Shown here piece by piece: positions 57,150-61,874 of a stretch of 64,000 nucleotides of DNA. This DNA is from Burkholderiaceae bacterium. GTDB taxonomy: Bacteria > Pseudomonadota > Gammaproteobacteria > Burkholderiales > Burkholderiaceae_C. Location: positions 1-64,000 of the forward strand of contig JAGOPK010000020.1 in assembly GCA_017992055.1 (NCBI GenBank), in the 5' to 3' direction. Every line of letters starts with the position of its first letter. Within the stretch, counting starts at the first letter, position 1. The notes under the pieces were generated by a model. It was not told the origin of the DNA and searched no databases. It saw nothing but the letters and a program-made list of their open reading frames with translations. Both the position numbers and the translations under genes were made by a program.

Positions 57150-58231
57150 TCTCATCCGGCCGGCCACCGGCCCTGGCCATCCATGCCGGCCCGCGGGCGC
57201 GCCAGCAACTGCGTGAGCAGGGCCTGCGCCCGGCCGATGTGTGCCTGGTGCCGGCCGCCGCCGGCGGGCCCAAGGGCCTGATCCTCAATCCGCTGGACCG
57301 CTTCCTGTTCGGCCACTGGCTGGCCGGCAGCGCGCACACCGTGCACCTGCTGGGCGCGTCCATCGGCGCCTGGCGCATGGCCGCCGCCGCCCAGCCCGAT
57401 GCCGATGCGGCCCTGGCCGAACTGGCCGAGGACTACATCACCCAGAGCTACGAGCATGCGCCGGGCAAGCCACCGACCGCCGCCGAGGTCAGCCGCGCCT
57501 TCGGCGCCAAGCTGGCCCAGCGCTTTCCGTCCAGCCAGCCGGGGCCGCTGGCCCATGCCAGCCGGCGCCTGCATGTGTTCACCAGCCGCGGCAAGGGCCT
57601 GCTGCATCGTGAGGGCCGCTGGCGTACGCCCTCGGGCTATCTGGGCGCCTTTGCCGCCAACCTGGCCAGCCGGCGCGCCATGGGCCGCTGGCTGGAGCGG
57701 GTGGTGTTCTCCGATCCACGTGAGCCGCTGCCGATCCCGCTGCACGACTATCCGGCGCGCCAGGTGGTGCTGGACCGAGGCAATCTGCAGCCGGCCCTGC
57801 TGGCCAGCTGCTCGATCCCGTTCTGGCTGCAGGCGGTGCATGACATCCCGGGCGGTCCCGCCGGCGCCTACTGGGACGGCGGCATCACCGACTACCACCT
57901 GCACCTCGACTATGCGGCGATGGAGCAGGGCCTGGTGCTGTACCCGCACTTCCAGCGCCAGCTGGTGCCGGGCTGGCTGGACAAGGCGCTGAAGCACCGC
58001 CATCGGCCCAGCGCACGCCTGGACAACGTGGTGGTGCTGGCGCCCAACCCGGCCTGGGTGGCCACGCTGCCTGGCGGCAAGCTGCCGGACCGGGGCGACT
58101 TCAAGGCCTTTCTGCACGACGAGGACCAGCGCATGCGCCGCTGGCGCCAGGCCGTGGCCGCCGCCGGCCAGCTGGCCGACGAGGCCGCCGAGCGGCTGGC
58201 GCAGCCCAGTGTCGAGGCCCTGCCGCTGTGA
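57137..58231 (+). CDS. Patatin-like phospholipase family protein
   Basis: A 364-residue protein with the patatin serine-aspartate dyad: Ser75 in GASIGAW and Asp247 in WDGGITD. AAAGGPKGLI (41-50) could form the oxyanion loop. No signal peptide is present, so it is probably cytoplasmic. The ATG at 57137 overlaps the receptor stop by 13 bp. The frame stays open far upstream inside the receptor gene, which is an antisense-free overlap without features. Substrate could be a phospholipid or a glycolipid; it cannot be told from sequence. Confidence 0.82.
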   Translation: MALLISSGRPPALAIHAGPRARQQLREQGLRPADVCLVPAAAGGPKGLILNPLDRFLFGHWLAGSAHTVHLLGASIGAWRMAAAAQPDADAALAELAEDYITQSYEHAPGKPPTAAEVSRAFGAKLAQRFPSSQPGPLAHASRRLHVFTSRGKGLLHREGRWRTPSGYLGAFAANLASRRAMGRWLERVVFSDPREPLPIPLHDYPARQVVLDRGNLQPALLASCSIPFWLQAVHDIPGGPAGAYWDGGITDYHLHLDYAAMEQGLVLYPHFQRQLVPGWLDKALKHRHRPSARLDNVVVLAPNPAWVATLPGGKLPDRGDFKAFLHDEDQRMRRWRQAVAAAGQLADEAAERLAQPSVEALPL

Positions 58232-58293
58232 CGGCGTGACAAAGCGCGCCGGTGCGTCGTTGTTCGGCCGATCGCGTTGCCGGGCCGGCTGGC

Positions 58294-58299
58294 TACAAT
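58294..58299 (+). promoter_or_regulatory. Candidate -10 element of the thrS operon
   Basis: TACAAT in GGCTGGCTACAATCA lies 44 bp before the leader-peptide start. A -35 hexamer is not clear. Confidence 0.4.
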
Positions 58300-58342
58300 C
58301 ACCATTCCTTCTAATCCACAAGAGCGAGAAAGGCATCTGGTT

Positions 58343-58384
58343 GTGACACCGCGAACTTCGCTGTTCGTTTTCACCGGCTGTTAG
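58343..58384 (+). CDS. Candidate thrS leader peptide (13 codons, 3 Thr)
   Basis: GTG at 58343 preceded by GAAAGG (spacing 9) opens a 13-codon frame reading [13 protein letters not shown], stopping at TAG 58382-58384. Thr codons are at positions 2, 5 and 11 (ACA, ACT, ACC). The frame lies directly in the attenuator structure before the threonyl-tRNA synthetase gene, which is the reason to call it. No conservation data are available here. Confidence 0.5.
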
Positions 58385-58430
58385 CCGGCCGCGCTGTCAC
58401 GTCGGTCTTTTTCCCTTCCCTCGGACAAGC

Positions 58431-58458
58431 AAAGCGCGGCTCACCCCCGCGCTTTTTT
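58431..58458 (+). terminator. Intrinsic terminator inside the thrS leader
   Basis: AAAGCGCGG (58431-58439) pairs with CCGCGCTTT (58447-58455) across a 7-base loop, followed by a T-run to 58458. It lies 33 bp before the thrS ATG, so it can only make sense as regulated termination or as the terminator of the upstream operon. Confidence 0.75.
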
Positions 58459-58491
58459 GTTGCCCGTCTGCAGTTTCACTCCGGAGTCCCC

Positions 58492-60399
58492 ATGGTCACG
58501 ATCACGCTTCCCGATGGTTCGAAACGCGAATTCCCCGGCCCGGTCACCGTGGCCGAGGTGGCGGCGTCCATCGGCACCGGCCTGGCCAAGGCCGCGCTCG
58601 GCGGCAAGGTCGATGGCAAGCTGGTCGACACCAGTCACCGCATCCAGGCCGATGCGGCCCTGGCCATCGTCACCGACAAGGACGCCGACGGCCTGGAGAT
58701 GATCCGCCACAGCACGGCCCACCTGCTGGCCTATGCGGTGAAGGAACTGTTTCCCGAGGCCCAGGTGACCATCGGCCCGGTCATCGAGCACGGCTTTTAT
58801 TACGACTTCTCGTACAAGCGCCCGTTCACGCCCGACGACCTGGCCGCCATCGAGAAGAAGATGGCCGACCTGGCCAAGAAGGATGAGCCGGTGCAGCGCC
58901 GCGTGCTGCCGCGCGACGAGGCAGTGGCCCACTTCAAGGGCCTGGGCGAGCACTACAAGGCCGAGATCATCGGCAGCATCCCGGCCGGCGAGGACGTCAG
59001 CCTGTACCGCGAGGGTGCCTTCGAGGACCTGTGCCGCGGCCCCCATGTGCCCAGCACCGGCCGGCTCAAGCACTTCAAGCTGATGAAGGTGGCCGGCGCC
59101 TACTGGCGTGGTGACCATCGCAACGAGATGCTGCAGCGCATCTACGGCACGGCCTGGGCCAGCAAGGACGACCTGCAGAAGTACCTGACGATGCTGGAGG
59201 AGGCCGAGAAGCGCGACCACCGCCGCCTGGGCCGCGAACTCGACCTGTTCCACATCGACGAGCACAGCCCCGGCACGGTGTTCTGGCATCCCAAGGGCTG
59301 GATCGTCTGGCAGGGCGTCGAGCAGTACATGCGCCAGGTCTACCGCGACAACGGCTACCACGAGGTCAAGGGCCCGCAGATCCTCGACCAGGGCCTGTGG
59401 GAGAAGACCGGCCACTGGGACAAGTACCGCGAGAACATGTTCGTGACCGAGTCGGAAAAACGCGACTACGCGCTCAAGCCGATGAACTGCCCCGGCCACA
59501 TGTTGATCTTCAAGCAGGGCATCAAGAGCTACCGCGACCTGCCGCTGCGCTACGGCGAGTTTGGCCAGTGCCACCGCAACGAGCCCACCGGCGGCCTGCA
59601 CGGCATCATGCGCGTGCGCGCCTTCACGCAGGACGACGGCCACATCTTCTGCACCGAAGACCAGATCCAGGCCGAGGTCAAGGCCTTCACCTCGCTGCTG
59701 CAGCGCGTCTACAAGGACTTCGGCTTCAGCGACATCATCTACAAGCTGTCGACGCGGCCCGAGAAGCGCATCGGCAGCGAGGAGAGCTGGGACCGCGCCG
59801 AGGCCGCCCTGGCCGAGGGCCTGCGCGCCTCGGGCTGCGACTTCGAGTACCTGCCGGGCGAAGGCGCCTTCTACGGCCCGAAGATCGAGTACACGCTGAA
59901 GGACGCGCTGGGCCGGCCCTGGCAGTGCGGCACCATCCAGGTCGATCCCAACCTGCCCGAGCGCCTGGATGCCGACTATGTGGGTGAAGACGGCGCGCGC
60001 CACCGGCCCATCGTGCTGCACCGGGCCATCGTCGGCAGCCTGGAGCGTTTCATCGGCATCCTGATCGAGCAGCATGCCGGAGCGCTGCCGGCCTGGCTGT
60101 CGCCGGTGCAGGTGGTCGTGGCCAGCATCACCGACGCGCAGGCGGAGTATGTTGCAGACGTCGTGAAAACACTGCAAAAACAAGGAGTTAGGGCCCAGGC
60201 CGATTTGCGCAACGAGAAGATCACGTATAAAATCCGCGAGCATTCGTTGCAAAAGGTCCCGTACATCCTGGTCGCAGGCGACAAGGAGAAGGCAAGCGGG
60301 GCCGTTGCCGTGCGCGCCCGGGGCAATCAGGATCTCGGCGTGATGCCGGTCTCCGACTTCATCGCGAAGCTCGCTGACGACATCGCCGCCAAGGTCTGA
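58492..60399 (+). CDS. thrS: Threonyl-tRNA synthetase
   Basis: A 635-residue class II synthetase charging tRNA-Thr. An N-terminal TGS domain (1-60), the editing domain with [10 protein letters not shown] and [12 protein letters not shown], the catalytic core (motif 2 [12 protein letters not shown], zinc ligands in MNCPGHM and others) and the anticodon-binding domain ([14 protein letters not shown]) are all present. It heads the thrS-infC-rpmI-rplT-pheS-pheT operon and is preceded by a candidate attenuator. Confidence 0.97.
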
Positions 60400-60501: not shown

Positions 60502-61053
60502 ATCGCTACGTTTCTTGATCGCCGGATGCCCAATGTCGAGCGCAAGCATCGACTGAACCGCGAAATCATGGCACCCATGGTCCGCCTGAACGGCATCAAC
60601 AACGAGCCGCTGGGCGTCGTGCCGATCATGGAGGCCCTGCGCCTGGCCGGTGAGGCCGACGTGGACCTGGTCGAGATCGCGGCGACGGCCGATCCTCCGG
60701 TGTGCCGGCTGATGGACTACGGCAAGTTCAAGTACCTTGAACAGAAGAAGGCCGCCGAAGCCAAGTCCAAGCAGAAGGTCATCGAGGTCAAGGAAGTCAA
60801 GTTCCGCCCGGGCACCGACGACAACGACTACGACATCAAGCTGCGCAATCTGCGTCGCTTCATTGCCGAGGATGGCGACAAGGGCAAGGTCACGCTGCGC
60901 TTCCGCGGCCGCGAGATCACGCACCAGGAACTGGGCATGAAGATGCTCGAGCGCATCCGCGACGAGCTGTCCGACGTGGCCGTGGTCGAGCACATGCCCA
61001 AGCTGGAAGGCCGCCAGATGATCATGGTGCTGGCGCCCAAGAAGAAGCAGTAA
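60502..61053 (+). CDS. infC: Translation initiation factor IF-3, ATC start
   Basis: A 183-residue initiation factor that rejects incorrect start codons and prevents 70S reassociation. I chose ATC at 60502, preceded by GAAGGGG, reading [22 protein letters not shown]. The only alternative, ATG at 60526, has no good ribosome-binding site. E. coli infC starts with the equally rare ATT, and IF-3 represses its own rare-start mRNA, so the same autoregulation is expected here. The N-domain ([12 protein letters not shown]), helix linker and C-domain ([17 protein letters not shown]) are intact. Confidence 0.93.
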
Positions 61054-61844: not shown

Positions 61845-61874
61845 AAGGCCGTCACCTGTGGGCGGCCTTTTTTC
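61845..61874 (+). terminator. Intrinsic terminator between rplT and pheS
   Basis: AAGGCCG and CGGCCTT (11-base loop) are followed by TTTTTT. It is 18 bp before pheS, so some transcription must pass it or start within the gap. I found no Phe-rich leader frame before it, unlike E. coli pheM. Confidence 0.65.

Follow-up and report, generated by a model that had tools for sequence, protein, structure and literature searches.

Known systems of control at thrS and related genes

In Escherichia coli, the thr operon leader (thrL) controls threonine biosynthesis through a Thr-codon leader peptide, alternative hairpins, and an intrinsic terminator, while pheST with pheM is an example of leader-peptide control of a tRNA synthetase gene. 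The E. coli gene for threonyl-tRNA synthetase (ThrRS), thrS, is controlled at a translational operator, where binding of ThrRS blocks translation. T-box riboswitches bind tRNA directly, without a leader ORF, and raise synthetase expression when the tRNA is uncharged. Part of PMC1183508 gives the E. coli thr leader eight ACC codons, and an excerpt of PMC2965389 describes leader-peptide control of Bacillus hisS paralogs.

The leader of thrS in the window (the whole 64,000-nt stretch of DNA analysed here) shares with thrL a Thr-codon peptide, alternative hairpins, and an intrinsic terminator, but it has three Thr codons and its target is thrS rather than threonine biosynthesis. As in pheST/pheM and Bacillus hisS, a synthetase gene stands behind a leader with codons for its own amino acid, although the amino acid, the gene, and the sequence differ. 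The E. coli thrS operator acts on the same gene, whereas the window has a transcription terminator and a leader ORF instead. The T-box resembles the attenuator proposed here in that synthetase expression rises when the cognate tRNA is uncharged, but differs in its direct binding of tRNA and its lack of a leader ORF. An Rfam search of the whole window at gathering thresholds returned two tRNAs only, with no Thr_leader (RF00506) and no T-box; over 58230-58530, permissive thresholds brought up three weak matches, none of them to Thr_leader or T-box but all to other families. Among the matches listed in our literature searches we found no report of a leader-peptide attenuator at thrS; the mechanism is known, and thrS would be a target of it for which no report was found. 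Priority is uncertain because the work of Lopatovskaya et al. 2010, which reportedly deals with attenuation at operons for amino acids and aminoacyl-tRNAs, is directly relevant and may already have predicted a thrS leader. That work is cited in a passage of PMC4833913.

Leader anatomy and proposed mechanism

The features upstream of thrS are as follows.

58294-58299, + strand: putative -10 promoter element TACAAT, from the sequence, 49 nt 5' of the leader start
58318-58335, + strand: conserved 5' block ACAAGAGCGAGAAAGGCA, from the alignment, with the leader Shine-Dalgarno sequence (GAGAAAGG, 58326-58333)
58343-58384, + strand: leader ORF with GTG start, 13 codons plus stop, from sequence and comparison
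58343-58353, + strand: segment 1, pairing with 58390-58400 (10 of 11 pairs, one C-C mismatch)
58352-58367, + strand: small hairpin within the ORF, CGAAC-TTCGCT-GTTCG, in predicted folds
58374-58388, + strand: stop-codon hairpin CCGGC-TGTTA-GCCGG, in the predicted fold, with a counterpart in a subset of relatives
58389-58400, + strand: segment 2, in which CCGCGCT (58389-58395) forms the antiterminator with segment 3 and 58390-58400 pairs with segment 1
58431-58439, + strand: segment 3, the terminator 5' arm AAAGCGCGG
58447-58458, + strand: segment 4, the terminator 3' arm CCGCGCTTT and T run
58492-60399, + strand: thrS, threonyl-tRNA synthetase, with TGS, tRNA_SAD, class II core, and anticodon domains

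The 13-codon frame with three Thr codons that a preliminary description had recognised is present, with Thr at codons 2 (58346, ACA), 5 (58355, ACT), and 11 (58373, ACC), and so is the stem that it drew between segment 1 and 58390-58400. Its CCGCGCT is indeed the exact complement of 58433-58439, but starts one base before the arm to which it had been assigned. The intrinsic terminator (AAAGCGCGG-CTCACCC-CCGCGCTTT-TTT, 58431-58458) ends 33 nt 5' of the thrS start. As in an attenuator, a short ORF with cognate (Thr) codons lies 5' of the gene, and an intrinsic terminator lies between the two. When the intervening stretch was shuffled 200 times by mononucleotide, the 1:2 pairing had p=0.005 and the 2:3 pairing was reached in 0/200. 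In an alignment of 74 sequences, 11 of the 18 columns of the 5' block are at least 90% identical. Hexamers resembling a -10 element occur upstream in 61/75 leaders, the middle half of them at positions -52 to -49, versus 0/76 in a control stretch of thrS coding sequence; a consensus scan for a full -35/-10 promoter before the leader found none.

The arrangement is real, recurs across the order, and is mechanistically familiar, as far as sequence can tell. Together with the fold models, it suggests that the thrS leader is very probably a ribosome-mediated transcription attenuator responding to threonyl-tRNA supply. Transcription would start about 40 nt 5' of the leader ORF, judging from the -10 element, and a ribosome would translate the leader behind RNA polymerase. 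With ample threonyl-tRNA, the ribosome would reach the stop codon and cover segment 2, leaving segments 3 and 4 to pair and transcription to end before thrS, with a terminated RNA of about 150 nt. With scarce threonyl-tRNA, it would stall at the early Thr codons and cover segment 1; segment 2 could then pair with segment 3, RNA polymerase would read through into thrS, and more ThrRS would be made when charged threonine tRNA is low. If true, thrS control would take a third form in addition to the E. coli operator and the T-box, one spread through a large bacterial order, and the leaders would make up a natural collection in which to examine how codons and their contexts determine the sensitivity of attenuation.

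Conservation of the leader among thrS loci

Its named relatives suggest that the window's genome belongs to the Burkholderiales. This genome, 29 relatives, and 80 named records yielded 107 oriented thrS loci; three further loci (L025, L103, and L106), in which the 5' end of thrS is missing, were left out. The leader motif, mostly MTPRT..., is present at 76 of the 107, the window included, and the 76 leader-to-thrS stretches all differ from one another; as judged from these sequences, the leader is not peculiar to the window's genome. The type strains Acidovorax delafieldii DSM 64 (L033) and Acidovorax facilis DSM 649 (L055) are among those with the leader. Start codons are ATG in 69 leaders, GTG in 4, CTG in 2, and ATA in 1. 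All 76 leaders have ACA at codon 2 and CCG at codon 3, and 70 have CGA at codon 4. Thr codons, to which the preliminary description had given a regulatory role, are conserved: codon 5 is Thr in 75/76 and codon 6 in 57/76, there with a varying third base, and positions past codon 6 are Thr-rich only in frame (ACN 111/575, versus 9/499 and 13/499 in the other frames). The Thr content of ThrRS itself is 4.6%. At least three Thr codons are present in 68 leaders and at most two in 8.

Upstream genes vary: at 73 loci with the leader, the longest upstream ORFs fall into 41 crude clusters. In the window, a patatin-like gene on the same strand ends 260 nt upstream of thrS; such a neighbour occurs at just 15/73 loci, the window's included, which suggests that the leader travels with thrS and not with the upstream gene.

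Pairing, covariation, and ribosome-position models

Segment 2 occurs in two arrangements, GGCCGCG...TCAC (the window's) and GTTCGCGC, the latter a pairing partner both for CGCGAAC in the ORF and for GCGCGGAC in the terminator. A script placed a terminator in 75/76 leaders, one placement (L056) looking spurious and being dropped later. RNAalifold on 74 leaders recovered just the terminator and a 4-pair local hairpin; for this reason we counted covariation in a subset of 22 sequences from the 74, namely the window and 21 relatives picked for a GTTCGCG-type arm or near it and mostly for the GTTCGCGC arrangement. Within this set, the choice of which favours the pairing under test, 96.1% of cells are paired in 1:2, 96.0% in the antiterminator 2:3, 93.9% in the stop hairpin, and 95.5% in the terminator. 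Double changes were seen at 4/6 pairs of the stop hairpin, one terminator pair, and one of the 8 pairs of 2:3, and none in the 1:2 stem. Across 73 leaders, own 2:3 arms outpair swapped ones (19.5 vs 18.3, sd 0.24; 0/300 swaps reach the observed mean), a result inflated by the relatedness of the genomes. The best 1:2 and 2:3 arms overlap by at least 4 bases in 57/75 leaders. Shuffling gave p<=0.05 at single loci for 2:3 in 30/75 and for 1:2 in 27/75. An antiterminator arm exclusive with the terminator, and conserved or covarying, is found across the set and is often within chance at any one locus. The mutually exclusive terminator and antiterminator states first proposed agree with shared arms and with covariation of 2:3 in relatives. 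Compensatory change was found in the 2:3 arms but not in 1:2, which is simply kept; relatives that had lost both the Thr codons and the pairing would have spoken against the attenuator, and instead both the codons and 2:3 are maintained.

We modelled ribosome positions with an assumed footprint of 18 nt upstream and 12 nt downstream of the first base of the A-site codon. In the window, the 1:2 stem is predicted to form first (P 0.81 in RNAs ending at 58405-58425) and, with segment 3 out, to give way to 2:3 (P(1:2) 0.01), so its role would depend on timing. For RNA ending at 58440, the modelled P(2:3) is 0.91 without a ribosome, 0.93 with one at Thr2 or Thr5, 0.58 at Thr11, and 0.01 at the stop codon. 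In the last state segment 3 is still paired upstream with P 0.61, 0.32 of it with segment 1, and this residual pairing weakens the simple attenuation picture. Once segment 4 is out, the terminator 3:4 prevails in every ribosome state (0.94-0.96), so the switch would have to be kinetic. Averaged over 74 leaders, segment 3 is paired upstream with a probability of 0.33 in ribosome-free RNA, 0.50 for a ribosome at Thr5, 0.39 for one at the last Thr codon, and 0.36 for one at the stop codon. From Thr5 to the stop the mean falls by 0.14, versus 0.04 in shuffled middles (p=0.046), and a clear modelled switch, with a difference above 0.3, is seen in just 19/74 leaders. Upstream pairing of segment 3 is higher with shuffled middles (0.56-0.61) than with real ones whatever the ribosome state, including at Thr5 (0.60 vs 0.50, p=0.009).

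Distribution across genus, order, and class

A covariance model was built from 74 of the 76 leaders, leaving out L049 (no terminator found) and L056. In the window's genome it gave one strong match (E 1e-26; next best E 0.13), and weak second matches in five genomes contained no Thr-rich mini-ORF when read. Within the genus, 14/21 genomes match at E<=1e-6; among the others, six (G001, G002, G004, G010, G011, and G018) have an absent or incomplete thrS-grade match, and G013 has a thrS without the motif (L017). In an order sample, 173/300 genomes match at E<=0.01, a number that is not a leader count because many weak matches cover just the terminator end. In a class sample of 229 genomes, under stricter filters, matches at E<=1e-7 were confined to three, the window's genome and two members of its family; the other 226 had none and are mostly not listed by kinship.

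In a further order set of 116 other genomes with thrS, the upstream stretch was read in 109. Leaders within 5 substitutions of the 18-nt consensus were found in 15/109, and the script placed a terminator in 88/109, some placements (G084, G087) not being the one before thrS. A strict rule required CGA-ACT or CGA-ACG within a short ORF with its stop 15-65 nt 5' of the terminator. It was satisfied by 27/88 stretches from 16 families, whereas 50 dinucleotide shuffles averaged 0.4 such stretches and gave at most 3; the genomes are related, so such counts are not independent events. Outside family f1, Thr codons after the CGA-Thr core number 44/185 in frame versus 6/159 and 5/159 in the other frames. 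In an unselected test of all 20 amino acids, mini-ORFs with at least 4 Thr codons occurred in 16/88 stretches versus 3.1% in shuffles, the largest ratio among amino acids with appreciable counts; Arg mini-ORFs were also raised (28/88 versus 15.6%).

A looser Arg-Thr rule was rejected. It was satisfied by 35/109 stretches versus 13-22 in shuffles, yet also by 34 on the reverse strand, which we think is caused by upstream tRNA genes; the strict rule with dinucleotide shuffles was used in its place. Some distant leaders (L130, L133, L137, and L140) read MTPRTC, and in others (L131, L132, L134, L135, L138, and L139) the Arg codon is changed (MTPLTT, MRPPTT) and the Thr pair kept.

Alternative explanations

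The alternative that survives best, although we regard it as improbable, is that the leader holds a partial terminator and that translation in general (any stall, start-codon quality, or antibiotics), not threonine in particular, determines its readthrough. It would account for a nearly invariant MTPRT beside variable later Thr codons, for leaders with just Thr2 and Thr5, and for a window fold that is antiterminated without a ribosome too. It would also be consistent with the 31 loci that lack the motif, 22 of which retain a GC hairpin with a T run close to thrS, in 13 cases no more than 60 nt after a -10 element. It does not predict, however, that Thr codons should be enriched in frame in two sets of leaders, at the gene for the Thr enzyme.

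A feedback loop in which ThrRS binds a tRNA-like hairpin of the leader, as at the E. coli operator, is much less probable again: the gene is the same, the leader is structured, and the loop of the window's stop hairpin happens to contain UGU, but this loop varies among relatives in the alignment, by eye, and a Thr leader ORF with a terminator would be unexpected for a translational operator. Least credible of all is that the terminator simply serves the upstream gene and that the ORF arose by chance, a reading which the nearby same-strand patatin-like gene might suggest and which is already contradicted by the -10 element between that gene and the leader, by the leader's occurrence behind different upstream genes, and by the frame-specific Thr enrichment.

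The CGA-Thr pair and rare codons

Under attenuation by threonyl-tRNA supply, the CGA directly before Thr is the least explained feature of the leader. ACA, ACT, and CGA (codon 4) hardly vary in the leader, yet in eight window genes ACA makes up 1.5% and ACT 0.8% of 130 Thr codons, and CGA 1.4% of 290 Arg codons. Among the 35 order-level candidates of the loose rule, in which any Arg codon could precede Thr, 31 used CGA. The complementary GTTCG follows CGAAC in 35/74 leaders (8.3 expected) but in just 6/26 outside f1 (2.2 expected, shuffle maximum 6), so this pairing does not obviously explain CGA. The variants MTPLTT and MRPPTT lack CGA.

As a tentative and rather improbable idea, the leaders may belong to one family of thrS attenuators spread through the order, with CGA directly before a Thr codon acting as a pause site: slow decoding of CGA would keep the ribosome at the Thr codon, and even a leader that is short and poor in Thr codons would then respond to threonyl-tRNA. 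PMC1183508 describes as disputed the idea that rare codons sensitise attenuators. The conserved pair is in any case a concrete and testable oddity.

Loci without the leader and the downstream operon

At 13 of the motif-less loci (L032, L034, L035, L036, L040, L057, L064, L066, L068, L079, L083, L089, and L104), the hairpin lies 17-35 nt after the start of a -10 element, just before thrS and with no leader ORF, and so would form almost at the 5' end of the RNA. Loci that lack the motif but keep a hairpin may be decayed attenuators. In 59 of the 80 order-level stretches from other families (L166-L245), a tRNA-Val (GAC) gene lies 5' of thrS on the same strand, often with a terminator hairpin between the two. 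A tRNA terminator may have been the origin of the thrS attenuator.

In the window's genome (5.9 Mb), thrS is followed by infC, rpmI, rplT, pheS, and pheT, where rpmI, rplT, and pheT are names that we assigned from the ORF sequences. Between rplT and pheS, a terminator-like hairpin (AAGGCCG...CGGCCTTTTTT, 61845-61873) was noted by eye, with no Phe-rich leader ORF evident there on the same inspection; it is possibly a second control point of the operon. Genes for IF3 often begin at a non-standard start codon, and infC, read by eye, may begin at an ATC within 60502-60525, upstream of the listed ATG. If so, the GTG, CTG, and ATA starts of some leaders might be IF3-sensitive.
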